The notes under the pieces: model-generated
Seen by the model: the letters and a program-made list of their open reading frames with translations, nothing else
Told to the model about the DNA's origin: nothing
Database searches by the model: none
In this document: piece by piece, positions 12,273-33,673 of the stretch
Layout: the number at the start of each line of letters is the position of its first letter
Numbering within the stretch: the stretch's first letter is position 1
Assembly (NCBI GenBank): GCA_902783595.1
Contig: CACZRR010000068.1
Location: 1 to 34,313, forward strand
Reading direction: 5' to 3'
Source of the DNA: an uncultured Bacteroidota bacterium
GTDB lineage: Bacteria; Bacteroidota; Bacteroidia; Bacteroidales; P3
DNA: 34,313 bases
Made by a program: the position numbers and the translations under genes

Positions 12273-12314
12273 AAGATGTATGATTTATAAATTACGTTTT
12301 AGGTTTTCAGTGTT
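12273..12314. repeat. Degenerate 7-bp periodic array
   Basis: Read in steps of seven, the sequence gives AAGATGT, ATGATTT, ATAAATT, ACGTTTT, AGGTTTT, CAGTGTT. By hand count, 23 of 35 positions match the base seven further on. It fills the gap between the anti-sigma stop and the Spy-like start. Confidence 0.5.
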
Positions 12315-12318
12315 ATGA

Positions 12319-12645
12319 TTATTCGTACTTTTCTGCAAAGAATTCATACGGGTCAGTAGCCAACGACTCGATGGGTGCATAATTGTCATAGTCGGTTACC
12401 TGAGCGATCATATCGGAGATGCGGGCATCGGAGGCGCTGGAGGTCTGTCTGTTGACCACAAGAAGGGCGATGGCGGCGGCAGCGACTACAGCGGCACCTC
12501 CCGCCACACGACGCAGCACAAAACTGACACGTCGGGGACGCAGATAGGGATGACGGCGTACCTGCTCCATCACACCGTCGACGACATCGACGGTGTGATG
12601 GTAGTTCTGGTGGGATAGGTGTTGTAGTTGTTCTTCGATATTCAT
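12319..12645 (-). CDS. Probable anti-sigma factor, single-pass membrane protein
   Basis: 108 residues. The cytosolic N-terminus (about 1-45, MNIEEQLQHLSHQNYHHTVD, then MEQVRRHPYLRPRR) is followed by one transmembrane helix (about 48-66, AGGAAVVAAAAIALLVV) and a short periplasmic tail. It overlaps the ECF sigma gene by four bases (ATGA), the classic sigma/anti-sigma coupling. No zinc-binding HxxxCxxC motif is present, so it would bind the sigma by another surface. The call is from context, size and topology. Confidence 0.6.
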   Translation of the reverse strand: MNIEEQLQHLSHQNYHHTVDVVDGVMEQVRRHPYLRPRRVSFVLRRVAGGAAVVAAAAIALLVVNRQTSSASDARISDMIAQVTDYDNYAPIESLATDPYEFFAEKYE

Positions 12646-13175
12646 TGTTTAAGCATTTTCGCCAGGTTCTTTTTGGCGCGGAAGATGAGCGATTCCACCT
12701 TACTGAGAGAGCATCCCATAACCTCGGCAATCTGCAGGTAGGAGAAATCCTCGAAGGTGTAGAGCACGAGGGCTGTACGCTGCTCATCCTTCAGGCGACC
12801 AATGGCGTCACGCAGAGCATCGAGTTGCTCGCGGCGGATGATCTGTTGTTCTACATTGAGATCGCCACTGGGCATCTCGGGATGTCGCTCGCTGTCATCG
12901 GCACTGACGGTGCGGCGTTCTCGGGTAAGTGCCTTGCAGACCGTATTGACGGTGATGCGGTAGATGAAAGAACTCAACTTGGAATCAAACCTGAAACGCG
13001 GTAGCGCGGTATAGAGCTCCACAAACACCTGCTGTGTCACCTCTTCAACATCAAGGCGGCGACCACAGAGTTTATAGGTCAGGTTGGCTACAATCTGCTG
13101 GTATTCACGCACTATCAAGGCATACTTCTCCGTATCGCCAGCCAAGATCTGCTCCACTATCTGCTTGTCGTCCAC
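12642..13175 (-). CDS. ECF-type RNA polymerase sigma factor
   Basis: 177 residues. Region 2 (about 20-85) reads YALIVREYQQIVANLTYKL, then VEEVTQQVFVELYTALPRF and LSSFIYRITVNTV. Region 4 (about 120-175) has LPxEQR-like LKDEQRTALVLYTFEDFSYL followed by the helix-turn-helix QIAEVMGCSLSKVESLIFRAKKNL. It directs RNA polymerase to a small stress regulon, probably including this operon. The start is GTG at 13175: no in-frame ATG lies nearby and the ECF N-terminus (DDKQIVEQILAGD) begins right after it. The 3' end overlaps the presumed anti-sigma by ATGA. Confidence 0.93.
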   Translation of the reverse strand: MDDKQIVEQILAGDTEKYALIVREYQQIVANLTYKLCGRRLDVEEVTQQVFVELYTALPRFRFDSKLSSFIYRITVNTVCKALTRERRTVSADDSERHPEMPSGDLNVEQQIIRREQLDALRDAIGRLKDEQRTALVLYTFEDFSYLQIAEVMGCSLSKVESLIFRAKKNLAKMLKQ

Positions 13176-13227
13176 AGGTCGGATTCGCTATTAAGTACTT
13201 GTTGATTGTATTTTATTGTAAAAAAAA

Positions 13228-13260
13228 ATCAAAAATCAGAATTCGTAATACTAAATTCCG
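13228..13260. repeat. 7-bp periodic array forming the hslR 3' end
   Basis: In sevens: ATCAAAA, ATCAGAA, TTCGTAA, TACTAAA, TTCCGA. It covers the last ten codons and stop of hslR (residues SEFSITNSDF), which lie beyond the conserved basic tail of the protein. The periodicity is moderate, strongest between the first two units. Confidence 0.4.
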
Positions 13261-13636
13261 ATTTGGCGCGCTCCATCTCACGACGGTCTCGTTTGGTGGG
13301 ACGTCCTATGCCACGGTCTCGTTTTTCAAAAGCATACTGACGCGCCATCTGGATGCGCTCATACTCCTCGGTGGGGGTACGGTCAATCATGAAACCCGCC
13401 ACCAGAGCGGCGCCAACGCGGTTGGCAGGGGTGGAGAGGACCTCTATCTGCTTGTGCAGCTGCTCAATATTGAGGGCATACCGCTCGCCTATCTTCACCT
13501 CGTGCGACGGCTTGAGCTGACGTCCCTTCTCCCCTGCCCCCTCAAGCAGGGTGACGCGACCGTTGAGGCAGGCATCAGCAGCCAACGAGCGGGTCTTGTA
13601 GAGGCGCACGGCCCAGAGGTACTTATCGAGGCGCAT
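13229..13636 (-). CDS. hslR: Hsp15-like S4-domain RNA-binding protein
   Basis: 135 residues. The S4 domain occupies about 1-65: MRLDKYLWAVRLYKTRSLAADAC, NGRVTLLEG, LKPSHEVKIG. A basic C-terminal arm (RGIGRPTKRDRREMERAK) follows, as in Hsp15, which rescues stalled 50S subunits carrying peptidyl-tRNA. The last ten residues (SEFSITNSDF) look like an added tail read from a low-complexity 7-bp repeat. The start is only 5 bases from the tonB stop, so it is likely co-transcribed with the Ton genes. Confidence 0.9.
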   Translation of the reverse strand: MRLDKYLWAVRLYKTRSLAADACLNGRVTLLEGAGEKGRQLKPSHEVKIGERYALNIEQLHKQIEVLSTPANRVGAALVAGFMIDRTPTEEYERIQMARQYAFEKRDRGIGRPTKRDRREMERAKSEFSITNSDF

Positions 13637-13641
13637 TAGGG

Positions 13642-14391
13642 TCAGATCTTGAAGAAATAGGTGATGGTACCCATCTGCTCTTCCAACGCTCTGTCGTCCT
13701 GGTTGAATCGGGCTTTGCGGGCAGCGTCAAGGGCCCAACGGATAAGCTCGTCATTAGTACTGTTGGATCCCTTGGGTTCGTATTCGGCACGCGTCACACG
13801 ACCGCGTTTGTCGACCCAAATGCGAACCACCACGGTGCCCTGCTGGTTGGAGTTATAGACAGGTTTGGGGAGACTCACCGCACTGCGTCCCGCCAGAGAG
13901 TAGCTGCCGCCAGGCACTCCACCCCTCACCGTATTACTACTGGAGGGGTCACCATTCAAGGCGCCCTGGTTACCGGCGTTACCGGTATTGCCATTGCCCT
14001 GGCCGTTATTTCTATTCCTGAGTTGATTGAAGCGGTCGGCCGTGGCTATGGCGTTCTGATTGATGCGTGGCTCCTCCTGCCTCACCTCTTCCTTATGGGT
14101 ATCAGTGGATGCGGGCACTCTGGCAGCACTCTGGCGCTGTGTGGCGCTGCGAGAAGGATGATGCGGTGCCGCCGCCTCCGTGCTACGTGGGGTGGCGGGA
14201 GCGGGCGTGTCACCTTGACCGCGAGTGGGCGAACCAAGGCTGATCTCAAAGCCCTCGGGAGGGTCCTTGGGGGGATGCTGCATCTCGTACTCCGCGGCGT
14301 CGAAGCGGTAGCCACTGATGAGAAGCATAGCGACAACGACAACAAGGGAGAGCAGAGCGGTGGCTATTACAGATGTCGTTTTGGGTGACAT
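13642..14391 (-). CDS. tonB: TonB-family energy transducer
   Basis: 249 residues. A cytosolic start (MSPKTTS) leads to one transmembrane helix (about 8-26). Next come a Pro/Ala/Ser-rich periplasmic spacer, an Asn/Gly-rich low-complexity stretch (NRNNGQGNGNTGNAGNQG) and a C-terminal TonB domain (about 172-249: KPVYNSNQQGTVVVRIWVD, RVTRAEYEP, WALDAARKARFN). It sits after exbB and exbD with 3-base spacing, so it forms the Ton motor that energises outer-membrane SusC-like or siderophore receptors. The short C-terminus also resembles TolA-like variants, so a Tol role cannot be excluded. Confidence 0.88.
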   Translation of the reverse strand: MSPKTTSVIATALLSLVVVVAMLLISGYRFDAAEYEMQHPPKDPPEGFEISLGSPTRGQGDTPAPATPRSTEAAAPHHPSRSATQRQSAARVPASTDTHKEEVRQEEPRINQNAIATADRFNQLRNRNNGQGNGNTGNAGNQGALNGDPSSSNTVRGGVPGGSYSLAGRSAVSLPKPVYNSNQQGTVVVRIWVDKRGRVTRAEYEPKGSNSTNDELIRWALDAARKARFNQDDRALEEQMGTITYFFKI

Positions 14392-14394
14392 AAT

Positions 14395-14805
14395 TCAACT
14401 TTTTGTTGCTAAGGTCACTTTATGTTTGCCGTCGGTAGCGGCATTGATCTGTTCTACAGCATCGAGCGTATAAACGATCTGCTCGACAGGGACCTCCTTG
14501 TCGGCACGCAAGACGATGGCGGCATCGGCAGGGCGCTCTGCCAGCGCGTCGGTGAGCACCTGCCGCAAGTCGGCAGCATCAAAGGGCTCTGTGCCAAGGT
14601 AGTAGGCGATAGGGTTGTAAGTGATATATACCGTAAGGTCCTGCTTCACCCGCGTGTCGCTACTACTCTCCGGGAGGTTGAGGGGGATCGCATTGGGACT
14701 GATGAGTGTCGAGGTGATCATGAAGAATATGAGCAACAGGAACACCAAATCGCTCATGCTCGACGATGAACTCTCAACGCTGATTTTGTTCTGAAGCTTG
14801 ATCAT
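14395..14805 (-). CDS. exbD: ExbD/TolR-family biopolymer transport protein
   Basis: 136 residues with one N-terminal transmembrane helix (about 18-38). The helix carries the conserved aspartate in SMSDLVFLLLIFFMITSTL, the proton-coupling residue of ExbD/TolR. The periplasmic part (INLPESSSDTR-like block, ADKEVPVEQIVYTLDAVEQ) fits the family. It works with ExbB as the proton-driven motor for TonB. Three bases separate it from tonB. The leader contains a 7-bp periodic array. Confidence 0.93.
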   Translation of the reverse strand: MIKLQNKISVESSSSSMSDLVFLLLIFFMITSTLISPNAIPLNLPESSSDTRVKQDLTVYITYNPIAYYLGTEPFDAADLRQVLTDALAERPADAAIVLRADKEVPVEQIVYTLDAVEQINAATDGKHKVTLATKS

Positions 14806-14813
14806 ATCTTAAT

Positions 14814-14845
14814 AAACGTAAATCGTATAACGTCAAACTTCAAAT
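14814..14845. repeat. 7-bp periodic array between exbB and exbD
   Basis: Successive units AAACGTA, AATCGTA, TAACGTC, AAACTTC, AAATCCT. By hand count, 20 of 30 positions match the base seven further on. It occupies the gap between the exbB stop and the exbD start. Confidence 0.6.
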
Positions 14846-14847
14846 CC

Positions 14848-15543
14848 TTATGCCGGCTCGTGGAGGAGGTCCATGAATTCGTTGGCACGCACTTCAAGGT
14901 CAAACACCACATTGTTGATGCGCGTCACCAACAGGTTGTATAGGAAATAGCATATAATACCCACAATTAGGCCACCAACGGTGGTAACCATGGCGGTGGA
15001 AATACCGCCGGAGAGGGTCTGTATACTGATATTGGTGCCCGCATTGGACATATCATGGAAGGCAGTGATCATGCCAGTTACGGTACCCAGGAAGCCGAGC
15101 ATGGGACCCAAGGAAGCTACGGTAGCCACCAGCGACACGCGCTTTTCAAGGCCCGCCACCTCCAATTTACCCTCATTCTCAATGGCTGCCTGGATATCGG
15201 GAAGCGGACGTCCGAGACGAGAGAAGCCCTTATTGATCATGCGCCCCAATGGGGTGTCGTTCTCTTTAGAGAGGTCACGGGCTCGCTCAAGATCCCCCTC
15301 ATGTACGTACTGTCGTATATTCTCCATGAAGACATTGTCTTCCTGCCCTTTCAAGGCTCGGCTGAGGGTGAGGTAACGCTCAATGAAGATATAAACGGCC
15401 AGCACCAGCAATAAGGCCAGGACGATCATAATCCAACCGCCGCTGACAGCCATCTGCCACAATGACAGAGAGGTGACGGCGTCGCTCTGCGTGGCGGCAT
15501 TCTCCGCAAGCGAATCAATTTGAACAATCTGTAAAAGATGCAT
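14848..15543 (-). CDS. exbB: MotA/TolQ/ExbB proton channel protein
   Basis: 231 residues with three transmembrane helices (about 28-52, 135-160 and 177-205). The large cytosolic loop after helix 1 contains FIERYLTLSRALKGQ. The family signature lies around SLVATVASLGPMLGFLGTVTGMITAF and ISTAMVTTVGGLIVGI, with the pore Thr residues in the last two helices. It is the stator of the Ton complex with ExbD. The order exbB-exbD-tonB on one strand is standard. Confidence 0.94.
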   Translation of the reverse strand: MHLLQIVQIDSLAENAATQSDAVTSLSLWQMAVSGGWIMIVLALLLVLAVYIFIERYLTLSRALKGQEDNVFMENIRQYVHEGDLERARDLSKENDTPLGRMINKGFSRLGRPLPDIQAAIENEGKLEVAGLEKRVSLVATVASLGPMLGFLGTVTGMITAFHDMSNAGTNISIQTLSGGISTAMVTTVGGLIVGIICYFLYNLLVTRINNVVFDLEVRANEFMDLLHEPA

Positions 15544-15549
15544 ATTTTT

Positions 15550-15600
15550 GAATTTAAAACTTAATACTTAGAATATAGAATTTAAGAATTAGAATCTTAA
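15550..15600. repeat. 7-bp periodic array between DUF5683 gene and exbB
   Basis: On the minus strand the units read TAAATTC, TATATTC, TAAGTAT, TAAGTTT, TAAATTC. By hand count, 26 of 43 positions match at lag seven. The array runs from just ahead of the exbB ATG into the last codons of the DUF5683 gene. Confidence 0.6.
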
Positions 15601-16152
15601 CGACATCGCCAACGAGGGCTGTAATCCATAGGGAGAAGGCTGCACACTGGGCAGCACATTCATGCTGATGTTATCGTCAATCTGAAAATCGTAGAGGTGG
15701 CCGAACACATAGGCGTCAAGAAGGTTGAGAGCATAGATGCCGGCGGCAATAACACTGTACAGCTGGAAATAGCGGTTGTAAGAGTTATAAAGACTGTAGA
15801 TATTCGATGTGGGATAACCGGCATAGTCCTGCATACGGGGCGTCCCGCCATGGTCGACACGATAGAGGTACTCATCGCGGAAGGTATCCATCTTGTCGTA
15901 GTTGTAATATATGAGATAGCCGACACCGGCGAGGAGACCATAGATGATGGGCACCTTCCAAGCCTGACCATTGTATACCTGACCGCCGCCAGGAATCAGC
16001 GACCACCGCAACGCTGTGCGTGGCGAGTGTTTCCCCTCTACTTCAACGGGCTTCCTCTTGCGACGCAGCATGCTGTCGCCATCCTGGGCATTGCCCTGCT
16101 GCATGCAAACCAGTAGCAGCACGCACACCAAGCCGCCAAGCCATCTCTTCAT
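15589..16152 (-). CDS. DUF5683 family exported/membrane protein
   Basis: 187 residues. Signal peptide or first helix at 1-22 (MKRWLGGLVCVLLLVCMQQGNA). The DUF5683 core follows: PRTALRWSLIPGGGQVYNGQAWKVPIIYG, then a membrane helix (LLAGVGYLIYYNYD) and a second one near ALNLLDAYVFGHLYDF. The family is found right after parB in many Bacteroidales; its role is unknown. The ten-base gap from parB suggests co-expression. The last codons merge into a 7-bp repeat. Confidence 0.82.
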   Translation of the reverse strand: MKRWLGGLVCVLLLVCMQQGNAQDGDSMLRRKRKPVEVEGKHSPRTALRWSLIPGGGQVYNGQAWKVPIIYGLLAGVGYLIYYNYDKMDTFRDEYLYRVDHGGTPRMQDYAGYPTSNIYSLYNSYNRYFQLYSVIAAGIYALNLLDAYVFGHLYDFQIDDNISMNVLPSVQPSPYGLQPSLAMSLRF

Positions 16153-16162
16153 CGCCCCCCCC

Positions 16163-17047
16163 CTATTCCCCTTCTAGCAGTGCGACGATACGGTCAAAAT
16201 CCTTATCGGAGTTGAAGTGGATAGTCAACGTCCCTCTGCCGCGCTGTGTCCGTTTGATATCCACGGTGGACTGCAGACGTGCCTTGAGGTCACGCACCAC
16301 GGCGCTATGACGCTCCGGAAGGATGCCACGTTTCTTCGTTGTAGGAACAACGGGTTTCTTTCGCGTATTCTGCACCAACTGCTCTGTCTGATGTACCGAC
16401 AACTGCCGCTCGATGATGCTATGAAGGATGTCGAGGTGCTGTTCCTCATCCTCCACATTAATGAGTGCGCGCGCGTGCGCCATACTTATTTTACCCTCTG
16501 TCAGCGCCGCCTGTGTCTCATCGGGTAGCGTCAGCAGGCGCAGGTAATTGGTGATGGTGGAACGATTCTTTCCCACACGTGCGCTGAGTTCCTCATGGGT
16601 GAGACGGCACTCCTCGATAAGCGCTTTGTAGGCCTGCGCCACCTCTATGGCGCCAAGATTCTCGCGCTGAATGTTCTCCACCAGCGCCATCTCCATCATC
16701 TGCGTGTCGGTGGCGGTACGTACATAGGCGGGGATTTCCTTGAGGCCCGCCATACGCGACGCACGCGTACGACGCTCTCCGGCGATGAGCTGGTAGCTGC
16801 CGTCGGGCATGCGACGCACCGTAACAGGACTGATGACGCCCTGCACCCTGATGGATTGCGCCAAATCCTCAAGAGCCTCATCGGCAAAAGCCTTACGGGG
16901 CTGGTAAGGGTTAGCGACGATGCGGTCGAGGGAAATAGACTCTACACCTTCGTGGGCCGGCGTGGTACCTTGCGCCACATCGATGTCAATATCGGGCAGT
17001 ATAGAGCCCAATCCACGGCCCAAACCTCCACTTTTCTTCTTGGTCAT
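16163..17047 (-). CDS. parB: Chromosome-partitioning protein ParB
   Basis: About 294 residues from the ATG at 17047. An upstream in-frame start at 17080 adds eleven non-conserved residues, while MTKKKSGGLGRGLGSILP is the normal family start. The N-terminal CTPase domain has the boxes ISLDRIVANPYQPRKAF, GVISPVTVRRM and LIAGERRTRASRMAG. The helix-turn-helix part is LTHEELSARVGKNRSTITNYLRLL, with ISMAHARAL after it. A C-terminal dimerisation region follows. ParB loads at parS sites and spreads to organise the origin with ParA. No parS site was recognised in the window. Confidence 0.96.
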   Translation of the reverse strand: MTKKKSGGLGRGLGSILPDIDIDVAQGTTPAHEGVESISLDRIVANPYQPRKAFADEALEDLAQSIRVQGVISPVTVRRMPDGSYQLIAGERRTRASRMAGLKEIPAYVRTATDTQMMEMALVENIQRENLGAIEVAQAYKALIEECRLTHEELSARVGKNRSTITNYLRLLTLPDETQAALTEGKISMAHARALINVEDEEQHLDILHSIIERQLSVHQTEQLVQNTRKKPVVPTTKKRGILPERHSAVVRDLKARLQSTVDIKRTQRGRGTLTIHFNSDKDFDRIVALLEGE

Positions 17048-17088
17048 AATGCTCTCTTTGTTGTCTGTTGGATGGCTCAAGTCAACGC

Positions 17089-17859
17089 TCAGCGGCGGCT
17101 CTGGCGCTCGAGAATCTCCTGAGCCAGGTTGAGGTAATTGACGGCACCGGACGATGAGGCGTCATGCATGATGATAGACTTGCCGTATGAGGGTGCCTCC
17201 GCCAACTTGGTATTGCGGTAGATGAGGGTGTTGAACACCATCTGCTTGAAATGGTCACGGACATCCTGCACCACCTGCCGCGCCAACCGAAGGCGGTTAT
17301 CATACATGGTGATGAGTAGACCTTCGATGGCGAGCGTAGGATTGAGGCGCGTTTGCACAATACGCACGGTGTTAAGCAATTTGCCCAGACCCTCCAAGGC
17401 GAAGTATTCGCTCTGGATGGGTATGATCACCGAGTCGCTGGCTGTTAGGGCGTTAATGGTGATGAGGCCCAGCGACGGCGAGCAGTCGATAATGATAAAG
17501 TCATAATCGTCCTTAATGGGCGCCAGCGCGCGTGCCAGGAACTGCTCGCGGCCCTTCTCCTCGATGAGCTCCACCTCGGCACCGACCAGGTCGATGCGCG
17601 TAGGCAGCAGGTCCAGGTGGGGGGTGTCGGTCGCGACGATGACATCGCGAGCCGCCGCCTGCCCCAGGATGCACTCGTATACGCTCTTCTGCAGCGCGTC
17701 GGGAGCCACCCCCAGGCCCGACGTAGCGTTGGCCTGCGGGTCGCAATCCACCAGCAGCACCCTCTTCTCGAGCACCGCCAGCGAAGCACTGAGGTTGACG
17801 GCCGTCGTCGTCTTGCCTACGCCACCCTTCTGGTTAGCTATGGAAATGATCTTCGCCAT
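17089..17859 (-). CDS. parA: Chromosome-partitioning ATPase ParA
   Basis: 256 residues from the ATG at 17859; a GTG at 17865 gives two more residues and is less likely. Deviant Walker A box KGGVGKTTTAVNLS is at about 10-23, Walker A' is LLVDCDPQANAT, and Walker B is FIIIDCSPSLGLIT. It binds DNA non-specifically as an ATP dimer and drives ParB/origin segregation. It lies 41 bases ahead of parB and 9 bases after the DUF3276 gene. Confidence 0.97.
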   Translation of the reverse strand: MAKIISIANQKGGVGKTTTAVNLSASLAVLEKRVLLVDCDPQANATSGLGVAPDALQKSVYECILGQAAARDVIVATDTPHLDLLPTRIDLVGAEVELIEEKGREQFLARALAPIKDDYDFIIIDCSPSLGLITINALTASDSVIIPIQSEYFALEGLGKLLNTVRIVQTRLNPTLAIEGLLITMYDNRLRLARQVVQDVRDHFKQMVFNTLIYRNTKLAEAPSYGKSIIMHDASSSGAVNYLNLAQEILERQSRR

Positions 17860-17868
17860 CTTCACATG

Positions 17869-18207: not shown

Positions 18208-18242
18208 AATGTTTATATGTTTTTATACATGCGTTTGCGACT

Positions 18243-18251
18243 GCAAAAATA
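18243..18251 (-). promoter_or_regulatory. -7 element ahead of DUF3276/parAB
   Basis: The minus strand reads TATTTTTGC, matching TAnnTTTG, 36 bases before the ATG at 18207. A weak ATTG lies 17 bases upstream as a possible -33. It would start the long leftward transcript through parA and parB. Confidence 0.45.
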
Positions 18252-18339: not shown

Positions 18340-19620
18340 TCAATGCTTGTGTGTCATAATGTCGAGAATGCAGTCGTCGGTGGCGTCCATGCCCTCTTTG
18401 CCGAGGCGGCCGAGGTTGCGGATAGAGCTGTCGAGATCGTTCTCGCTGAGACCGTCGGTGGCGTCGACGACATGACCGTGTACGGCGAGTTCGCTGCATA
18501 CGAAAGCGCTGTAAAGACCCACACTCATCTTGAGGGCGCAGCTGGGCTTAGCACCGTCGCACACCATGCCGGCGATGGTGTTGATCATATTCTTCAGGGC
18601 GAAGCCCACCTGCTCAAAGGAACCCCCTTCGAGGTAGGTCAAAGATGCTGCGACACCCATCGTGGCATTGACGATGCCGCAAAGCGCGGAGAGGCGTCCG
18701 ATGCCGCGCTTAATATATATGGACATGAGATGACTCATGGTCATAGCGCGCAATATTTGCTCCTCTGAGCAGCCCTTCAGGGTGCCATAGTAGTAGGGCG
18801 GCAGGGTGCATGTGATGCCTTGGTTGCCGGAACCCGAGTTGGAGTAGACGGCCTTGGTACACCCATCCATACGTGCATCGCTGGCCGCCGCGGTGCGTGC
18901 CACCACGGTGTGTACAATGTCGCCGCGCGCCTGCTCCATGAGTATCTTGCCTGTGTGGAGCCCCATGCCCTGGAGACCACAGTCGGCCGCTGCACTGTTG
19001 TAATCCACCGCCTCCTTGAGCCACAGGAGCTCCTGCAACGGAGCCGTGGTGGCATAGTCGTAGACGAGGCGCGCGGACAACGCCAACTGGGGCTCAGATG
19101 TTGCCGTTTCTGCGGGCTGCTCGTCGAGACCCTTGCTGTGATCCATCAGCACCTGGCCGTCGCGTTCGAGGTATACGAACAGCGTGTGGCGCCGCGCGAT
19201 GATGGCCGTGGCCTGATGGGTGGCGCTGCGCACGGTGCAGCAGATGTGGAGTTTCTCGTCGCCCTCTCCCACGCCTATCTCTATCCTGTCGGCGTGGTTC
19301 GCCAGCCAGCCCTTAGCATCTTGAACCTGGGAGTGCTGCAGGGTGAGCACCTCGAGGCCGCGGGCAGGATCGCCGTGGGTGACGGCCATAGCCACCGCTA
19401 TGGGCAGTCCTATCATCCCTGTTCCTGGAATGCCGACACCCATTGCGTTCTTGAACACATTCTTGCTCAGCGTCAGCGCGATGTGCAGAGGCTCTTCTTC
19501 GAGCAGCGTACAGGCTTTGGCAACACAGAGGGCTACAGCGCCCGGCTCGGTACATCCAGTGGCGGGCACCACCTCCTGTTTCATTATGTCAGCGATCTGC
19601 TTACGAACAATATCTTCCAT
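18340..19620 (-). CDS. L-cysteine desulfidase / L-serine ammonia-lyase family protein
   Basis: About 426 residues from the ATG at 19620; a TTG two codons earlier is less likely. It opens with MEDIVRKQIADIMKQEVVPATGCTEPGAVAL, the UPF0597 (YhaM/CyuA) N-terminus containing the active-site ATGCTEP block. Later cysteines that would hold the iron-sulfur cluster lie in GITCTLPPYYYG, LCGIVNATMG and VCDGAKPSCALK. These enzymes break L-cysteine into pyruvate, ammonia and sulfide, or act on serine; substrate is not decidable from sequence. It lies 23 bases after dnaB, in a gap with weak 7-bp periodicity. Confidence 0.88.
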   Translation of the reverse strand: MEDIVRKQIADIMKQEVVPATGCTEPGAVALCVAKACTLLEEEPLHIALTLSKNVFKNAMGVGIPGTGMIGLPIAVAMAVTHGDPARGLEVLTLQHSQVQDAKGWLANHADRIEIGVGEGDEKLHICCTVRSATHQATAIIARRHTLFVYLERDGQVLMDHSKGLDEQPAETATSEPQLALSARLVYDYATTAPLQELLWLKEAVDYNSAAADCGLQGMGLHTGKILMEQARGDIVHTVVARTAAASDARMDGCTKAVYSNSGSGNQGITCTLPPYYYGTLKGCSEEQILRAMTMSHLMSIYIKRGIGRLSALCGIVNATMGVAASLTYLEGGSFEQVGFALKNMINTIAGMVCDGAKPSCALKMSVGLYSAFVCSELAVHGHVVDATDGLSENDLDSSIRNLGRLGKEGMDATDDCILDIMTHKH

Positions 19621-19643
19621 ATCCAAATTCTATGTTCTAAAAA

Positions 19644-21161
19644 TCAAAACGGATCCAGGTCACCGTCGGGGGGGAAGTTGTCGTCGTTCATCTTGGAGTC
19701 GACGATCATGCTGCCGCCGTCGAAAGCGGTGTTCTGTGGCATGAGGGCCGCGGCGTCGGCGTCGCCGAACTTGGGAGCGTTCTCGAAGCGTGCGAACTCC
19801 TTGACGAAGCGCAGGCGCACCTCACCGGTACCACCGCTGCGGTGCTTGGCGACGAGCAGGTCGGCCATACCCGCCGTGGAGCCGTGGTCGTCCTCCTGGA
19901 TGCCGTAGTACTCGGGGCGGTAGATAAAAATGACGATGTCAGCGTCCTGCTCAATGGCACCGCTCTCGCGGAGGTCGCTGAGCTGCGGCTTGTTGCCGAC
20001 GCGGTTCTCGACGGCACGGCTGAGCTGCGACATAGCGAGGACGGGGATGCCCAACTCTTTGGAGAGCGACTTGAGCTGGCGGGAGATCATGCTGATCTCC
20101 TGCTCACGATTGCCGTTGCGGTTGTCGGCGGTGCCGCTGGTCATGAGCTGGAGGTAGTCGATGAATATCATCTGTATGTCGTAGCGCTGCTTGAGGCGAC
20201 GCGCTTTGGCACGCAGCTCGAAAATGGTGAGCTGGGGGGTGTCGTCAATATAGATAGGCGCGCTGCCGAGGGGCTGGGCGCCACGTTTGAGCTGTTCCTG
20301 CTCGTAGGGGGCAAGGTGACCACGCTTGAGCTTGTCGCCCGGGAGGCGGGCCTCACTGCTGATGAGGCGCATGGCAAGCTCCTGGCCTGTCATCTCGAGT
20401 GAGAAGAAGGCCACGGGCTTATGGAAGTCGATAGCCATATTGCGCGCCATACTGAGGGCACATGCCGTCTTACCCATGGCGGGACGTGCAGCGAGGATGA
20501 TGAGGGTGCCGGGTTGGAAGCCCGCAGTCATGCGGTCAAGGTCGACGAAGCCGGACTCGAGGCCGCTGAGGCCGTCGCTCTTTTCTCCGGCCTCCTTGAT
20601 CTGTTCCATGGCTATGGTGACGAAATCACCCATGGGGTGATAGTCGGAGCGGAAATTCTTGTCGTTGATGTCCATGAGACGCTGCTCGGTGCGGTCGAGG
20701 AGATCGACGACATCGGTCGTCTCGTCGTAGGCCTGAGTGATTGTCTCGGTGGATATTCTTATCATCTCGCGCTGGATGAACTTCTCGCTGAGCACACGGA
20801 TGTGGTACTCGATATGCGCTGCCGAGACAACATTCTCTGTCAGCTTGGAGACAGCATAGGCGCCGCCCGCGGCCTCCAGCTCGCCATCCTGTCGAAGGCG
20901 TTCCACCACGGTGAGCAGATCGACGGGCTGGCTCTGTTCGAAGAGTTTGCGGATGGCACGGTAGACGGCCTGGTGCTCGGGTTTGTAGAAATAGTCGACA
21001 TGCAGCGTCTCGATGGCATTGATGAGTGCCGTCTGGTCGAGCATGAGGGCGCCGAGGACTCCCTCCTCGAGGGCCACGGCTTGGGGGGGCGTGTTGCCGT
21101 TGAGGTCGAAAGCCTGCGCGTAACTTATTCTATCCTTACGTCTTGTACCTGTATTAGGCAT
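19644..21161 (-). CDS. dnaB: Replicative DNA helicase DnaB
   Basis: 505 residues. The N-terminal helical domain begins near PPQAVALEEGVLGALMLD (about 24-41). The RecA-like C-terminal domain has Walker A in ARPAMGKTACALSMARN, Walker B in MIFIDYLQLM, and SQLSRAVENR plus DLRESGAIEQDADIV. It is the hexameric helicase that unwinds DNA ahead of the replisome. No intein is present. The ATG at 21161 has a -7 element 24 bases upstream, sharing the intergenic space with the butyrate kinase promoter. Confidence 0.97.
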   Translation of the reverse strand: MPNTGTRRKDRISYAQAFDLNGNTPPQAVALEEGVLGALMLDQTALINAIETLHVDYFYKPEHQAVYRAIRKLFEQSQPVDLLTVVERLRQDGELEAAGGAYAVSKLTENVVSAAHIEYHIRVLSEKFIQREMIRISTETITQAYDETTDVVDLLDRTEQRLMDINDKNFRSDYHPMGDFVTIAMEQIKEAGEKSDGLSGLESGFVDLDRMTAGFQPGTLIILAARPAMGKTACALSMARNMAIDFHKPVAFFSLEMTGQELAMRLISSEARLPGDKLKRGHLAPYEQEQLKRGAQPLGSAPIYIDDTPQLTIFELRAKARRLKQRYDIQMIFIDYLQLMTSGTADNRNGNREQEISMISRQLKSLSKELGIPVLAMSQLSRAVENRVGNKPQLSDLRESGAIEQDADIVIFIYRPEYYGIQEDDHGSTAGMADLLVAKHRSGGTGEVRLRFVKEFARFENAPKFGDADAAALMPQNTAFDGGSMIVDSKMNDDNFPPDGDLDPF

Positions 21162-24107: not shown

Positions 24108-24110
24108 GTG

Positions 24111-24160
24111 TACCTAAAACGTCAAACGTATAACGTAAAACGTAAAACATCAAAATCAAA
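24111..24160. repeat. 7-bp tandem array (AACGTAA type)
   Basis: Seven successive units on the plus strand: TACCTAA, AACGTCA, AACGTAT, AACGTAA, AACGTAA, AACATCA, AAATCAA. The period is unmistakable. It lies between the aroC stop and the lipoprotein start. Confidence 0.85.
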
Positions 24161-28001: not shown

Positions 28002-28013
28002 GAAACCTGTTGT

Positions 28014-28661: not shown

Positions 28662-28713
28662 CAAAAAACGTCTAAATCTTCTAAATCATCTGTTTACAAA
28701 GACTCTCCCCTCG

Positions 28714-29484
28714 CTATATCTCCACCGTCAAGCCGTCATACGCCAGCCACACCCCCTCCGGCAACTCTTCCTGCACACGCTCGTGCAGACCCATCTCGTG
28801 GCTCATATGCGTCAGATAGGCGCGCCGCGGCTTCAGCTCCTTGATCAGCGCCAGCGACTCCTCCAGACAGAAGTGCGACCAGTGTTTTTCCTTCCGCAAG
28901 GCGTTCACCACCAGCACCTCCAGTCCTCGCAGCTTCCCCTTCTCCCCCTCCGGCACAGCGTTGACGTCGGTGAGGTAGGCCATATCGCCAATCCTGTACC
29001 CCAGGATGGGCAGGTCTTTGTGCATCACACGTATCGGCTCCACCGTCATGCCGGCAACATCAAAAGCCCCTTCGACATCGTGCAGCCGCGCCTCCGGCAA
29101 TCCCGGATAGTCGTGCGGCGCAAAAATATAGCGGTAGTCGCGCAACAAGGCCTCGCGCGCCTCCGCATTGAGGTAGATATCCATGGGACCGTGCTGCACA
29201 TGGTTGAAAGCCCTGATGTCGTCCAAGCCCGCCACATGGTCGCGGTGCGCATGGGTGATGAGTATGGCCGCCAACGACCGCACACCCTGCCGCAGCATCT
29301 GCTGCCGGAAGTCGGGACCTATGTCGAAAAGAATATTGCGACTCTCCCCCTCCTGCTCCACAGTCAGCATCGCCGACGTACGCAAGCGCTGGTCACGCCG
29401 GTCGCCCGACGTGCACACCTCGCAACCACAGGTGATCACAGGCACTCCTTGCGAGGTTCCTGTACCCAGGAAAGTCAGCTTCAT
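28714..29484 (-). CDS. MBL-fold metallohydrolase, PhnP-like
   Basis: 256 residues from the ATG at 29484; a GTG one codon earlier is ignored. It starts MKLTFLGTGTSQGVPVITCGCEVC, with a cysteine pair typical of PhnP relatives. The metal site is THAHRDHVAGLDD, with later ligands around MAYLTDVNAV and a His in RAYLTHMSHEMG. PhnP-type enzymes hydrolyse cyclic phosphodiesters; other relatives use nucleotides or cofactors. It lies 11 bases after the response regulator. Confidence 0.88.
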   Translation of the reverse strand: MKLTFLGTGTSQGVPVITCGCEVCTSGDRRDQRLRTSAMLTVEQEGESRNILFDIGPDFRQQMLRQGVRSLAAILITHAHRDHVAGLDDIRAFNHVQHGPMDIYLNAEAREALLRDYRYIFAPHDYPGLPEARLHDVEGAFDVAGMTVEPIRVMHKDLPILGYRIGDMAYLTDVNAVPEGEKGKLRGLEVLVVNALRKEKHWSHFCLEESLALIKELKPRRAYLTHMSHEMGLHERVQEELPEGVWLAYDGLTVEI

Positions 29485-29495
29485 CACCCCAGCGA

Positions 29496-30188
29496 CTATT
29501 CTTTATGCGTCAGCTTGAAGCCCACACCGTGCACATTGACGATCTCCACCGAGGGGTCAGCCTTCAGGTACTTGCGCAACTTGGTGATATACACATCCAT
29601 CGAACGGGCGGCAAAGTAGCTGTCATCCTTCCAGATGCGCTCCAACGTGGTGTTGCGGTCCACCAGCTGGTTGAAGTTCACGGCGAATATCTTCAGCAGG
29701 TCACTCTCCTTGGCGGTGAGCCTCTGCACCTCCTCGCCGAGCGTCAGCGTCTGGTGCGTATAATCGAAGGTGAAGTTGCCAATCTTGAACACATTCTTGT
29801 CGATGCGCTCCTCATTGAACGAACGGCGCATCGTGGCATTCAACCGCGCCAGCAGCTCTTCCATGGAGAACGGCTTGGTGATGTAGTCGTCGGCACCCAC
29901 CTCAAAACCCTTCAGCTTGTCCTCCTCGAGGTTCTTGGCGGTGAGAAAGATGATGGGCACCTTCTTGTCGGCACGACGTATCTCTTTGGCTACGGTAAAA
30001 CCATCCTTGGCGGGCATCATCACATCGAGAATGCAGGCGTCAATGTCGCCTTCGTCAAAGACATTCAGCGCCTCGTCACCATCCTTGGTCCAAAGCACCG
30101 TGTAGCCTTTCTGCGTGAGATAGGCCTTGAGAATCGTTCCTAAATTAGGGTCGTCCTCGGCCACTAACAATTTAATTCCCAAATTCAT
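29496..30188 (-). CDS. OmpR/PhoB-family response regulator, RprY-like
   Basis: 230 residues. The receiver domain (about 5-118) has the acidic pair EDD at 11-13, phospho-acceptor Asp55 in ILDVMMPAKDGF, the switch Thr in FLTAK and Lys in ITKPFSMEELLAR. The winged-helix domain (about 130-228) ends VDVYITKLRKYL-like and VNVHGVGFKL. It resembles RprY of Bacteroides and Porphyromonas, but no histidine kinase gene lies next to it; its immediate upstream neighbours are membrane AraC/7TM genes. The leader contains a hairpin. Confidence 0.9.
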   Translation of the reverse strand: MNLGIKLLVAEDDPNLGTILKAYLTQKGYTVLWTKDGDEALNVFDEGDIDACILDVMMPAKDGFTVAKEIRRADKKVPIIFLTAKNLEEDKLKGFEVGADDYITKPFSMEELLARLNATMRRSFNEERIDKNVFKIGNFTFDYTHQTLTLGEEVQRLTAKESDLLKIFAVNFNQLVDRNTTLERIWKDDSYFAARSMDVYITKLRKYLKADPSVEIVNVHGVGFKLTHKE

Positions 30189-30223
30189 ATCAATTGTGGT
30201 TTATGTTTGTTTTCCTTTCCTCC

Positions 30224-30247
30224 GGACGGCATCAAGCCGACCTTTTT
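30224..30247 (+). terminator. Hairpin plus T-run in the response-regulator leader
   Basis: GGACGGC (30224-30230) pairs with GCCGACC (30236-30242) at six of seven positions around an ATCAA loop, followed on the plus strand by TTTTT. On the plus strand this looks like an intrinsic terminator, but no rightward gene precedes it. On the minus strand it is a hairpin 36 bases before the regulator ATG, where it may affect translation. Confidence 0.35.
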
Positions 30248-30370
30248 ATCATTAAGTAGAACACTAACCAATAAAATTGTCTTTTATTGTGTCAAATGTT
30301 AAATTTTTTTTTGTTAATTGCCCCTGGTATATGCGGAGGTCGGAGCCAACGGCAAACTCGCTTGCCTTAT

Positions 30371-30430
30371 GCGGAGGGAGGAGGGAGGATGTCGGAGGGT
30401 TGGCCTCGCCTACGCCCTCCGCCCTCCGAC
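30371..30430. repeat. GC-rich 7-bp array with inverted halves
   Basis: The left half reads in sevens GCGGAGG, GAGGAGG, GAGGATG, TCGGAGG; the right half CGCCCTC, CGCCCTC, CGACCTA. The halves are inverted complements: GTCGGAGGG (30391-30399) pairs with CCCTCCGAC (30422-30430). It directly follows the stop of the AraC/7TM gene on the minus strand and could serve as its terminator, though no U-run follows. Confidence 0.6.
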
Positions 30431-31567
30431 CTAGTCAAGGTGAAACGATTGTCCCAGCGGAGCGTGGAGCACACGCTGCCAGGCGCTCTCAAGGGCGTCG
30501 GGGGTGAGAAAGCCCGTTTGGTGTGCCAGGTGCGCCAGCACGTCGGGGTTATGAAGGTCAGGATGCTCGGCGAGGATGAGCGTGACGGCATGCTGCACAC
30601 GGAGGGCATCGAGGTATTCGGCGAAAGGTACGCCATGGGAGTGGTGGATGGCGTCGATGATTTCATCCTCAGTGCTGCCGAGCGCCTTGGCCAGAGCAGG
30701 AACGGAGAGGTCGGGATTGAGGAAGGCATGCTCTTTCTCAACATATTGATCGAGCCGCCGCACCAATGCTGCGGGGTCGCGGTGCGTGGGGGTGTGCCGG
30801 GGCAGATGCTCGGCGCCGGTATTGATAGCGTAGACAGAATGGCCAATATAGAAAAGGATGGCGGCAAAAGGCAGCACGTAGGTGAGGTAGAAGAGGAGGG
30901 GGTGGTCGGGAGAGAAAGGTTGGGTGAATATGGTGGCAAAAATGAGGGCAAGGCCGAGATTGGAGGCAATATAGATGCCTTTGAGGTTGAGGTTGCGGAA
31001 GCGCTCGTCCGAGTAGTATTCGGCGTTGATCTTGCGGAGGCTTATGGCTTTGCGTATGCCCGACACGAAGATGTAGAGAGTCTCAAAGGTGAAGACGACC
31101 CAGAAAGTGTAGAAGTTGGCCACCACGATGAGGTTGTAGCGCCAGGCGCCGGGAACGAAGACGCTGGGATACCCTTCACGGCAGCGGTCAGCCCACTGCC
31201 GGTACATCTCCGCCCCACCGATCATGGAAGAGGCTATCATGAGGCCTATGCAGATAAGCGTGGGAAGGAAGATGGTGCGGACAGACAACGAGGCGTTGTT
31301 CTGGCGGGTGAGCGCGTTGATGGCGATGTGGATGACGGGAGGCGTGGCCAGGATGACGTCGGGCAAGAGCATGAGGAGCAGGTACTCACGCATCAGGAAG
31401 GTGTTGAAGAGGCACCCCAGAAGGATGAACGTGAACGACACCATGGTCAAAGCAAGCATCATGAGCCATTGGGCGTTGAGCACATGCCGTTTGTGGAGCA
31501 GGGTGGCCAAAGGCCAAAAGAGGCCTACGAGGCCCAAAAGAACAAGTCCTATAGATACGGGAGTCAT
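30431..31567 (-). CDS. 7TM membrane protein fused to AraC-type DNA-binding domain
   Basis: 378 residues. About seven hydrophobic helices fill 1-260 (for example LGLVGLFWPLATLL, LLLMLLPDVILATPPVIHIAI, FLPTLICIGLMIASSMI). The last ~110 residues carry an AraC/XylS helix pair: LDQYVEKEHAFLNPDLSVPA, LAKALGSTEDEIIDAI, VPFAEYLDALRVQHAVTLIL, and HLAHQTGFLTPDALESAWQRV. It is thus a membrane-anchored transcription factor, presumably sensing through the 7TM part. Its 7TM half is homologous to the next gene upstream. A gene 32 bases upstream and a response regulator 243 bases downstream make a regulatory neighbourhood. Ligand and targets unknown. Confidence 0.82.
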   Translation of the reverse strand: MTPVSIGLVLLGLVGLFWPLATLLHKRHVLNAQWLMMLALTMVSFTFILLGCLFNTFLMREYLLLMLLPDVILATPPVIHIAINALTRQNNASLSVRTIFLPTLICIGLMIASSMIGGAEMYRQWADRCREGYPSVFVPGAWRYNLIVVANFYTFWVVFTFETLYIFVSGIRKAISLRKINAEYYSDERFRNLNLKGIYIASNLGLALIFATIFTQPFSPDHPLLFYLTYVLPFAAILFYIGHSVYAINTGAEHLPRHTPTHRDPAALVRRLDQYVEKEHAFLNPDLSVPALAKALGSTEDEIIDAIHHSHGVPFAEYLDALRVQHAVTLILAEHPDLHNPDVLAHLAHQTGFLTPDALESAWQRVLHAPLGQSFHLD

Positions 31568-31598
31568 GGGAGTTCAGAGTTAAAGTTAATAATTAAAA

Positions 31599-32399
31599 TT
31601 ATTCGTTTTCTATTTTCTGGCGGGTGTAGTCGGCCAAAAATCGAGCATCGTAGCTATAGCGATAGGCAAAACGACCGGTGAGGTACACAAAGACAGTCAG
31701 TATGACGGCACAGGCAATGAGACCGTATTTGTAGTAGAGCGGACGGAAGGCTATGAAGTAGATGGTCAACAAGCCGAAGGGCAGGAAGAGGCTGGCCACG
31801 ACGATGATCTCACGTATGCTGAGGTTGGGCAGGTTGAGACCCTGCGCATAGAAAGCATTGAAGCGCTGCTTGTAATGGTACGCCTTGCGGCCGCTAAGGA
31901 TGAGCAGCACGGTGCCCGTGACAATCATGCTGACAGGGTATACTATCTGGTTCCAGAAGATCATAAAGTTGTAGGCAAAATCCCTCGGCTGCCAAGGTAT
32001 ACGGCCACTCTCAAAGACCTGAACGCACATCTCCTGGTAGCGGCTGGGGTGCATGCCGAAAGCGGCGATGGTGAGACCTACGGTGAAAAGAAGGGGAATG
32101 AGGAACACCCGGCGCTGGCGCAGGGTGGCACCGCGGGGCTCCGTGAGCGAGCAGATGGAGATATAGAACAACGGCGTACAGAACGACGACGACACCTCGA
32201 CGAGGTAGTCATAGAGAAAGAGACCGCCGGCACGGCCGCGGAAGTAGACGCCGGCGACGGTGATGGCGAAGGCGTCGACCACAAGGGTGAGACAGAGAAG
32301 CACCTGTGCACGGGTGAGGTGCCTCTTGGTCATAGCAATGATGAAGGCCCATGCCATAGCCACCACCGCCGGAAGATATAGTATTAAACTCCACCTCAT
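31599..32399 (-). CDS. 7TM membrane protein, paralogue without DNA-binding domain
   Basis: 266 residues with seven predicted helices (LILYLPAVVAMAWAFIIAM, QVLLCLTLVVDAFAITVAGVY, VFLIPLLFTVGLTIAAFGM and others). It aligns by eye with the 7TM half of the neighbouring AraC fusion: same topology, similar loop before helix 6 (RFNAFYAQGLNLPNLSIREIIVVASLF versus KINAEYYSDERFRNLNLKGIYIASNLG). It ends shortly after the last helix (ADYTRQKIENE), so it has no effector domain. It may be a partner or decoy subunit for the fused protein, or an effector-less duplicate. Family unnamed to me. Confidence 0.75.
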   Translation of the reverse strand: MRWSLILYLPAVVAMAWAFIIAMTKRHLTRAQVLLCLTLVVDAFAITVAGVYFRGRAGGLFLYDYLVEVSSSFCTPLFYISICSLTEPRGATLRQRRVFLIPLLFTVGLTIAAFGMHPSRYQEMCVQVFESGRIPWQPRDFAYNFMIFWNQIVYPVSMIVTGTVLLILSGRKAYHYKQRFNAFYAQGLNLPNLSIREIIVVASLFLPFGLLTIYFIAFRPLYYKYGLIACAVILTVFVYLTGRFAYRYSYDARFLADYTRQKIENE

Positions 32400-32412
32400 A
32401 ATTCTTCTAATT

Positions 32413-32450
32413 GATCAAACGTATAACGTAAAACCTAAAACGTAAAACAA
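32413..32450. repeat. 7-bp tandem array (ACGTAAA type)
   Basis: Successive units ACGTATA, ACGTAAA, ACCTAAA, ACGTAAA after GATCAA. By hand count, 19 of 22 core positions match at lag seven. Nearly the same heptamer as the array at 24111-24160, about 8 kb away. Confidence 0.8.
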
Positions 32451-32480
32451 TCTATCAATTCGAGTAATTAGCCGTTAAAA

Positions 32481-32520
32481 AACTTAACTTTAAACTTTAA
32501 CCTTTAAACTTTGAACTTTA
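32481..32520. repeat. 7-bp tandem array (CTTTAAA type)
   Basis: Units CTTTAAA, CTTTAAC, CTTTAAA, CTTTGAA, CTTTATT run straight up to the ispG stop. It is a different heptamer from the array 30 bases to the left but has the same period. Confidence 0.85.
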
Positions 32521-32521
32521 T

Positions 32522-33673
32522 TCACCGGTCCCTCTCGATGAACCTCACCAGCTCGTCCACAGCGTCCTTCTGGTCGATGTCACGCTTCACCACCTCCTTG
32601 CCTTTGTAGAGGGTGATCTTGCCGTGACCCGACCCCACATAGCCGTAGTCGGCATCGGCCATCTCGCCGGGACCGTTGACGATGCAGCCCATCACGCCGA
32701 TCTTCACACCCACCAGGTGCTTCGTCTTCTCCTTGATCTCGCGCAGCGCCGTCTGGATGTCGTACTGCGTGCGGCCGCACGACGGACAGGCGATATATTC
32801 CGTCTGTGTGATGCGCACCCCCACGGCCTGCAGGATGTCGTAAGCGATGGGCATCTCCTTCTCAGGATCCTCGGTGAGGCTCACACGCACCGTGTCGCCG
32901 ATGCCGTCGAGCAGCAGCGCCCCGATGCCGGCGGCACTCTTCAGGCGTCCCTGCATGCCGTCGCCAGCCTCCGTGACACCCAGGTGTATCGGGTAGTCCA
33001 TACCCATATCGTGCATCTTCTTCACGAAGAGCCTCGTGCTGTCCACCATCACCTTCACGTTCGAGGCCTTCATCGAGAACACCAGGTCGTGGTAGTCCTG
33101 CTGGCGGCACACCTCGGCGAACTCGATGGCGCTCTGCGCCATACCCTCCGGCGTATTGCCGTAGCGGCTCATGATGCGCTCACTCAGCGAGCCGTGGTTC
33201 GTGCCGATGCGCATCGCTGTGTGGTGCGCCTTGCATATCTCTATCAGCGACGCCATCCTCTCCCCTATTCTCTTCAGCTCGTCCTGGTACTCACGCTCCT
33301 GCTCATCCGACCACTTCCCACTTTCCACATCCCACTTTCCGCTGTTGCGATCCACGTAGTTGCCGGGGTTCACCCTCACCTTCTCCACCAGCGCGGCGGC
33401 CACCTCGGCGGCTTTGGGGCTGAAGTGGATGTCCGCCACCAGCGGCACCTCACAGCCGCGCCGCAGCAGCTCCTCCTTGATGCGGCCGAGGTTCTCCGCC
33501 GCCTTCACGTCGGGCGCCGTGATGCGCACCAGCTCGCAGCCCGCCTCCACCATCCTCAGCGCCTGCTCCACGGTGGCGCGGGTATCCATCGTGTCGGTAT
33601 TCGTCATGCTCTGCACGCGCACGGGCGCTCCCCCACCCAGCGTCAGGTTGCCTATATGTATCTGTCTGCTCAT
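32522..33673 (-). CDS. ispG: HMB-PP synthase IspG, large-type sequence lacking A* domain
   Basis: 383 residues. It makes HMBPP from MEcPP in the MEP isoprenoid pathway using a 4Fe-4S cluster. TIM-barrel part: VRVQSMTNTDTMDT, LVADIHFSPKAA, VRVNPGNYVDR, RIGTNHGSLSERIMSRYG, SMKASN and LGVTEAGDG. The cluster domain has ACPSCGRTQYD (Cys296, Cys299), GCIVNGPGE (Cys330, Glu337) and MADADYGYVG. NHGSLS and the MADAD-YGYVG end are typical of the large bacterial/plant enzyme, which carries a ~230-260 residue A* domain after VSLTEDPE. Here that domain is absent and the frame joins smoothly. A 7-bp repeat lies inside the gene. Confidence 0.95.
   Translation of the reverse strand: MSRQIHIGNLTLGGGAPVRVQSMTNTDTMDTRATVEQALRMVEAGCELVRITAPDVKAAENLGRIKEELLRRGCEVPLVADIHFSPKAAEVAAALVEKVRVNPGNYVDRNSGKWDVESGKWSDEQEREYQDELKRIGERMASLIEICKAHHTAMRIGTNHGSLSERIMSRYGNTPEGMAQSAIEFAEVCRQQDYHDLVFSMKASNVKVMVDSTRLFVKKMHDMGMDYPIHLGVTEAGDGMQGRLKSAAGIGALLLDGIGDTVRVSLTEDPEKEMPIAYDILQAVGVRITQTEYIACPSCGRTQYDIQTALREIKEKTKHLVGVKIGVMGCIVNGPGEMADADYGYVGSGHGKITLYKGKEVVKRDIDQKDAVDELVRFIERDR
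33311..33345. repeat. 7-bp array inside the ispG coding region
   Basis: Units CCACTTC, CCACTTT, CCACATC, CCACTTT, CCGCTGT on the plus strand. Translated in the ispG frame it gives the repetitive peptide SGKWDVESGKWS in a variable loop after NPGNYVDR. It has the same period as the intergenic arrays. Confidence 0.85.

Follow-up and report, generated by a model that had tools for sequence, protein, structure and literature searches.

Families of imperfect 7-bp repeat arrays recur at unlinked sites and in frame within core enzyme genes of an uncultured Bacteroidales bacterium

Short, imperfect tandem arrays with a period of 7 bp are scattered along contig CACZRR010000068.1 of an uncultured Bacteroidota bacterium (order Bacteroidales, lineage P3; assembly GCA_902783595.1), a stretch of 34,313 nucleotides that is referred to here, at its full length, as the window. 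The units of these arrays form a few families that recur at unlinked sites of the genome and that are mostly different between species; one and the same orthologous loop of PurL or IspG carries differing repeats, or none, across relatives. The window is contig C68 of a 1.77 Mb genome (112 contigs, 80% complete; the "own" genome in what follows), which belongs to a genus of at least 119 genomes. Its closest named relatives, judged by ispG, are Bacteroidetes/Bacteroidales metagenome-assembled genomes (loci L002-L004, 90-91% identity). The own genome was sampled at contig starts chosen by contig number, a non-random choice that takes in a third of the genome, and two congeners (G015 and G004) were sampled alongside it.

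An initial annotation of the window had pointed to eight main tracts and two weaker ones as sharing the 7-bp period. Measured against 2000 dinucleotide shuffles, with lags 3 to 15 compared, lag-7 identity is above the shuffles in all eight main tracts (each p <= 0.0005): 0.66 for the tract beginning at 12273, 0.72 at 14814, 0.61 at 15550, 0.72 at 24111, 0.57 at 30371, 0.71 at 32413, 0.76 at 32481 and 0.75 at 33311. One of the weak tracts, at 13228, is also upheld (0.62, p <= 0.0015); the other, 19620-19645, is not (0.42, p 0.17). The best lag within 3 to 15 is 7 or 14 in each of the nine supported tracts. Tandem Repeats Finder reports period 7 at 13224, 24115, 30373, 30409, 32417, 32486 and 33311 and period 21 at 15550, and gives no report at 12273 or 14814. 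The arrays and the gene that hosts one of them are the following.

12273..12314, no strand assigned: imperfect period-7 array, filling the gap between the minus-strand open reading frames (ORFs) 11798-12268 and 12319-12645.
13228..13260, no strand assigned: weak AAAAATC array of period 7, next to the ECF sigma-factor gene 12642-13175 and lying between minus-strand ORFs.
14813..14840, plus strand: array of four units of the [ACT]AAAC[GCA]T family, between ExbD/TolR-like and ExbB/TolQ-like genes.
15550..15600, no strand assigned: imperfect array of period 7, for which period 21 was reported, lying between ORFs of the minus strand.
24112..24154, plus strand: [ACT]AAAC[GCA]T family array, beginning 4 nt past the stop of the chorismate synthase gene aroC.
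30373..30432, no strand assigned: inverted array pair, with a GGAGGGA arm at 30373-30389 and a CCCTCCG arm at 30409-30432.
32416..32450, plus strand: array of five units of the [ACT]AAAC[GCA]T family, downstream of ispG.
32481..32520, no strand assigned: AAACTTT array, the second in this gap, reaching to within 1 nt of the stop codon of ispG.
32522..33673, minus strand: ispG (383 amino acids), host of an in-frame array; its aligned part is 8 codons longer than the array-free ortholog of L002.
33311..33345, minus strand: AAAGTGG-family array within ispG, with the in-frame reading SGKWDVESGKW at residues 111-121.

The ExbD/TolR-like and ExbB/TolQ-like genes that flank the array at 14813..14840 are both on the minus strand, and their family matches are below curated cut-offs. 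The inverted pair at 30371-30430 folds to a hairpin (z -2.5 on the plus strand, -1.9 on the minus strand). A short sequence adjoining this pair (window 30341-30377) matches a repeated stretch elsewhere in the genome (L134 16310-16441).

The genome-wide excess at lag 7, on which the reading of the initial annotation hung, is there in the 329 kb of own genome that were scanned against shuffles: 35 lag-7 segments have a score of at least 13, against 0.2 in shuffled sequence. At the same score the window holds six lag-7 segments (0.1 in shuffles), four at lag 14, two at lag 6, one each at lags 11, 12 and 15 and zero at lags 4, 5, 8, 9, 10 and 13. Over the 329 kb, lags 4, 5, 8, 10 and 13 yield 0 to 2 segments; counts are elevated, too, at lags 3, 6, 9, 11, 12, 14, 18 and 21 (10 to 21 segments per lag), in part through codons and multiples of 7. 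The two congeners have 27 best-lag-7 arrays in 353 kb and 33 in 400 kb, and as many at lags 9 and 11 (29 and 22; 28 and 36), so that lag 7 is there one among several periods. The density of lag-7 arrays is similar in cyanobacterial loci, and there is little in Prochlorococcus and a mixed group. Period-7 excess is widespread, in agreement with published work, and tandem 7-bp units exceed random expectation here as they do among bacterial heptanucleotide simple sequence repeats (SSRs).

The tracts had been described as using different heptamers. That holds only in part, because the arrays at 14814, 24111 and 32413 belong to the single family [ACT]AAAC[GCA]T. When each array is represented by its consensus unit, with rotations and the two strands treated as equivalent, and unlinked arrays are compared pairwise, 7.3% of 1558 own pairs have identical units, against 0.4% with scrambled units; own arrays paired with those of others have identical units in 0.9% (G015), 0.1% (G004) and 0.4% (named loci) of pairs. 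The own families include AAAGTGG (14 arrays), AAAACGT (six, plus two AAACGTC) and ACCTCCG (five). Whole-genome pattern scans of 59 genomes, in which counts of scan windows are not counts of arrays because the scan windows overlap, place AAAGTGG triplets in 58 scan windows of the own genome and 268 of G056, with none in 26 genomes, and AAAACGT triplets in 67 scan windows of the own genome, with matches in 8 of the 59 genomes of the genus, the own included. The reversed control pattern AAAGGTG is a large family elsewhere (220 scan windows in G036) and has none in the own genome. Six AAAACGT arrays lie in one orientation within ~21 kb of a single own contig (C48, 26-47 kb; L274, L275), where they reach 17 units, with higher-order repeats. 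Outside arrays, neither AAAACGT (7-mer percentile 0.13) nor AAAGTGG (0.54) is common, and ACCTCCG (0.93) is. Seeding by abundant 7-mers was considered and rejected: of the five leading units of each genome, most have an ordinary or low frequency elsewhere than in arrays, the common ones including ACCTCCG and, in G015, AAAATTG.

The array inside ispG had been taken as the one exception to a location between genes; genome-wide it is nothing of the kind, since called genes hold 30 of the 57 own arrays. The corresponding counts are 12 of 29 in G015, 15 of 34 in G004 and 4 of 82 in cyanobacterial loci, the calls in the samples coming from a simple self-trained caller that sets some starts wrongly and may absorb open arrays into genes. 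The arrays of the three congeneric samples are thus not mainly intergenic in the manner of bacterial heptanucleotide SSRs, although per kb the own arrays are about six-fold rarer in coding than in noncoding DNA. Eighteen of the 30 own coding arrays lie inside a single family match, the hosts being IspG, PurL (five arrays), DnaE, IleS, RNase R, a GsiA-like ABC protein (two), GH92, peptidase U32, GSCFA (three) and a metallo-hydrolase (two); the IleS and GsiA-like matches are below curated cut-offs, and the IleS gene is truncated by a contig end. Four more lie between two domains of one protein or at their edge (CinA, PrmC-like, PriA and a RapZ-C protein), and the other eight are near gene ends, in unassigned stretches, or in genes outside the family scan, which covered all own host genes but two (L137 5966-6874 and L145 15416-16846). 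In IspG, residues 107-139, the array included, are unaligned to chain 3noy_A in a phmmer comparison with solved structures; single-sequence structure prediction gave a poor model of this protein (mean pLDDT 45.5) and was not used. As assembled, the dnaE of G025 (L253) and a purL fragment of G024 each have an in-frame TGA within otherwise long matches.

Orthologous sites turn over. The alignments cover PurL in 30 of 31 searched genomes, DnaE in 29 of 31, and IspG in 20 of 33 matching genomes together with 7 named loci. In the window two arrays occupy the gap downstream of ispG; L003 has a TAATTCT array there, and L002 and L004 have none. L007, with a different next gene after ispG, has an AGGTAGC array. 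The ispG loop itself is occupied by arrays in 4 of 20 congeneric loci (the own included) and in none of the 7 named loci. Another in-frame insert, NTPSPLRGTPPWQGES, stands in the same loop in L096 (the ispG of G007), and the ispG of L084 ends in a TPDPSPLKRGE tail. Among the loci listed, five PurL loops are occupied by period-7 arrays or, depending on the species, by 9-bp repeats, and in the PurL 627 loop the two kinds of repeat are of similar length. The 9-bp coding repeats of the PurL loops of L213-L223 and L241 are of the types CCCATTAAA, TCTAGCAGC, CAGAATACT and AAGGACCTT. On a 27-species tree, drawn from ungapped PurL columns of which some are still loop columns, the fewest changes that account for the loops are 2, 2, 3, 3 and 5, with L217 added to loop 122 at a score one below the label threshold. 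Period 7 is not the rule among inserts of at least 5 residues: 5 of 19 PurL inserts and 1 of 24 DnaE inserts reach a lag-7 score of 12.

The preference for gaps between co-directional genes that was noted in the window persists but is modest: 23 of 27 own noncoding arrays are in such gaps, which make up 74% of gaps and 58% of gap bases. The same holds for 12 of 12 placed arrays in G015 (5 being unplaced) and 15 of 19 in G004, and the remaining noncoding arrays of the three genomes are in divergent gaps. Convergent gaps hold none of 58 gap-placed period-7 arrays, though they comprise 7, 16 and 21% of gap bases. Array positions are spread along the gap. Neighbouring arrays less than 50 bp apart are inverted in nine cases and direct in one, with one tie, some of these orientations being decided by no more than one or two bases; within 300 bp the numbers are 11, 5 and 3.

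Arrays with other periods are present as well. A second dispersed class, of period 11 (TGCTCTATAGT, TGGGAGCGGAC, TGTTCGATTGT; CTGGTAGGTRT in G004), is found at window 372-427, L144 13424-13515, L136 2339-2392, L140 8832-8944 and many G004 and G015 loci, and is nearly all noncoding (noncoding/coding 20/1, 23/0 and 38/1 in three samples). Arrays of period 8, of the AGACTTCG and GTTAGTGC types, lie at L167 7573-8173, L187 9232-9765 and L186 11209, some of them apparently as inverted pairs.

From a constant period with changing sequence, the initial annotation had argued for a generating mechanism or selection on spacing, rather than for a conserved binding site. A process that keeps a 7-nt register is indeed supported by the lag-7 excess and by the likeness of adjacent units (see below); the premise that sequence changes freely does not survive, and neither does the setting aside of a conserved site, because unlinked arrays have units in common and, within the AAAACGT unit, two phases vary while three are near-fixed. 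Together, unit families and fixed and free phases keep a recognised or templated motif in contention. Two layers are needed to account for the arrays: a genome-specific unit that reaches unlinked sites without flanks, and then local duplication. Among known processes, template switching combined with slippage is the simplest to provide for both layers, and we favour it tentatively, as an account that is quite possible while falling short of probable: bare arrays would spread by short-homology template switching, lengthen by 7-nt slippage and be filtered by selection in genes. A pool of units peculiar to the species would seed new arrays where the target offers a few matching bases; template switching at replication forks would carry them to unlinked sites, with inverted neighbours as an outcome that it could give; strand slippage would lengthen them 7 nt at a time; purifying selection against stop codons and frameshifts would act on those in genes; and enzyme loops would be repeatedly overwritten. 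What observation supplies is the lag-7 excess, units common to unlinked arrays whose flanks are not, turnover at orthologous sites, in-frame arrays within family matches and inverted neighbours; switching, slippage and purifying selection are inferred. The modest frequency of two of the three main own units outside arrays also speaks for the account.

A good deal weighs against this account. Over 188 units of 23 own AAAACGT arrays, mismatches by position number 83, 9, 1, 5, 1, 66 and 13, which is to say that positions 1 and 6 vary and positions 3 to 5 are near-fixed; G071/G052 repeat the pattern (16, 6, 1, 2, 1, 18 and 8, in 15 arrays), and other families have uneven, less extreme mismatches by position. 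Fixed and free positions within a unit are not what slippage with random mutation would lead one to expect, and template switching added to slippage leaves them unexplained, which makes motif selection a serious rival. In five family sets picked by lag-7 score, a way of picking that inflates measures of adjacency, adjacent units resemble one another more than permuted units do (0 to 17 of 1000 permutations as low); in arrays picked by family match the signal is small in the own genome (1.27 vs 1.39 mismatches, 10/1000 permutations) and absent in G071/G052 (1.38 vs 1.40, 401/1000). Own AAAACGT units from different arrays differ by 1.40 mismatches, adjacent units by 1.27 and non-adjacent units of one array by 1.13, so that the last are as alike as adjacent ones. 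In favour of the account, identity in longer own arrays drops with distance (0.77, 0.70, 0.68 and 0.63 at lags 7, 14, 21 and 28). Mixed multi-unit words are common to arrays no more than after shuffling of unit order (two tests), and tract copying is therefore not shown. G015 and G004 have a main family in common (9.6% identical pairs). As to the filter in genes, 49 of 57 coding arrays have a consensus unit that reads without a stop in the sense direction. The result is partly built in, because the gene caller requires open frames, and on any one strand 69% of random heptamers are open anyway. Both strands of the consensus unit are open in 35 of 57 coding arrays and in 9 of 63 noncoding ones; of the AAAACGT family, which carries a stop on one strand of its repeat, none of nine arrays is in a gene. 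Stop-free units and this absence are compatible with a filter on landings. On balance, a degenerate unit held in common is the main signal and local duplication a smaller one.

Slippage acting locally and by itself, with arrays arising in place from resident sequence and the polymerase footprint favouring 7 nt, has precedent: the portions available of PMC4692102 and PMC4679880 (citing Mrazek 2007) ascribe the heptanucleotide excess of many bacterial genomes to polymerase slippage. The likeness of adjacent units in the five sets speaks for it too, as does the tracking of flank GC by array GC in the first own-genome arrays (rho 0.59; a non-significant 0.21 and 0.32 in the other two). It is unlikely nonetheless, given the identical units at unlinked sites, far above the level of scrambled units and above own-versus-congener levels, the rarity of AAAACGT as a 7-mer outside arrays, and the limitation of variation to certain phases. 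This last property is what arrays of a selected motif, degenerate sites placed every 7 bp for a DNA- or RNA-binding protein with their fixed positions and spacing under selection, would display, and its repetition in G071/G052 is in their favour. All 15 placeable AAAACGT arrays (of 23) lie between co-directional genes, and heptameric direct repeats bound by regulators are known (PMC5930380, from the part of the paper available). Yet the orientation of AAAACGT arrays relative to genes is mixed rather than constant (9 same, 6 opposite), several unlike unit families coexist within one genome, many arrays are inside enzyme genes (five in purL alone), and 51 of 58 other genomes of the genus are without an AAAACGT match; we regard a selected motif as a doubtful explanation of the arrays as a whole. 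A strand-specific RNA function of AAAACGT arrays was likewise rejected, on the ground of the mixed orientation.

Fixed and free phases, bare arrays, shared units and both orientations would likewise be the expected product of a telomerase-like reverse transcriptase that writes from a short RNA template with ambiguous positions. This is extremely unlikely: no RVT_1 match was found in the own genome (80% complete), G015 (95%), G004 (98%) or G025 (82%), four of the eight genomes searched and all four bearing arrays, in a search that did not extend to other polymerase families. Carriage of the arrays by a mobile element, of the kind of miniature inverted-repeat transposable elements (MITEs) or Rickettsia palindromic elements, is very unlikely. 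In-frame inserts in metabolic genes do recall the latter, as far as the available description of them goes, and the three inverted pairs that were folded all form hairpins (z -2.5, -5.1 and -7.1), but array length and unit vary, and flanks are common to arrays no more than around random sites: with arrays masked, a further match turned up for 1 of 60 flanks of coding arrays and for 9 of 54 flanks of noncoding ones, where random sites, a few of them fully masked, gave 10 of 200 and 45 of 200. No shared element sequence extending past the repeat, as expected of both kinds of element, was found above the level of random sites. That the arrays are an artefact of metagenome assembly or binning is scarcely credible. 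The own genome is incomplete and in 112 contigs, and tandem repeats can misassemble; the same ortholog loops, however, hold arrays in separate assemblies with frames open, and period-7 arrays are frequent in cyanobacterial loci too, some from isolates. Loss of mismatch repair was rejected as a cause, mutS1 being over the cut-off in 29 of 30 genomes searched for it (mutL was not searched), the own included; G021, listed as 98% complete, has no mutS1 match over the cut-off (best E 7e-38). The absence of RVT_1, the presence of MutS and the unshared flanks remove three easy answers.

The separate ingredients of these arrays (heptamer excess, dispersed heptamer families and in-frame palindromic inserts) are known, to go by the parts of the literature available. 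Excess of heptanucleotides in bacteria was reported in 2007 (Mrazek, cited in PMC4692102 and PMC4679880), and a 2015 paper still found no detailed work on it; intergenic over-representation of heptamers is described for Xanthomonas and Nostoc in the portion available of PMC4692102. With the bacterial heptanucleotide SSRs (Mrazek 2007; Calothrix), as excerpted, our arrays share an over-represented 7-bp unit and slippage as the proposed origin, and they differ in that their units form several families restricted to some species, are imperfect, with fixed and free phases, and are often in frame in core genes. The GGGNATC and GGGGA(T/C)T repeats of Xanthomonas and Nostoc, in the same portion of PMC4692102, are likewise a dispersed family with fixed and variable positions, often of about four units, whose length and sequence differ among relatives; the theme there is G-quadruplex formation, whereas here genes contain about half of the arrays of the own genome. 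The TAACTGA repeats of marine Beggiatoaceae, cyanobacteria and five Bacteroidetes, in the available text of PMC4679880, are near-gene direct repeats of a heptamer with a patchy distribution, but of one exact heptamer with rare variants, in place of many degenerate families. Borg tandem repeats, according to the sections available of PMC9879509, are fast-evolving, occur in gaps and in genes, and are missing from relatives at the same site; they are perfect, and in genes their units are divisible by three, unlike the imperfect 7-nt units here. Rickettsia palindromic elements also insert in frame in metabolic genes but are of ~150 bp (PMC10969869, part available), against tandem 7-mers of 20 to 127 bp without common flanks. 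The combination of degenerate 7-bp families, in frame in core enzyme genes and turning over between species, was not found in the open-licence literature searched. What is new is that arrays colonise core enzymes in frame, the period-7 excess being known already.

A vocabulary of units that turns over between species, together with the repeated colonisation of loops, makes the origin and spread of arrays testable by comparison of strains, and it shows arrays supplying core enzymes with new loop sequence in a way that ordinary models of insertion and deletion do not cover. If the fixed and free phases reflect a templated or recognised motif, they point to an unknown activity. A decidedly improbable further reading is a unit-specific writing process that would lay 7-bp words of fixed and free letters, such as [ACT]AAAC[GCA]T, at scattered chromosomal sites, overwriting loops of core enzymes, without a transposon, RVT_1 or shared flanks; a genome-wide vocabulary of micro-repeats, different in most species, would then be propagating itself in these genomes.

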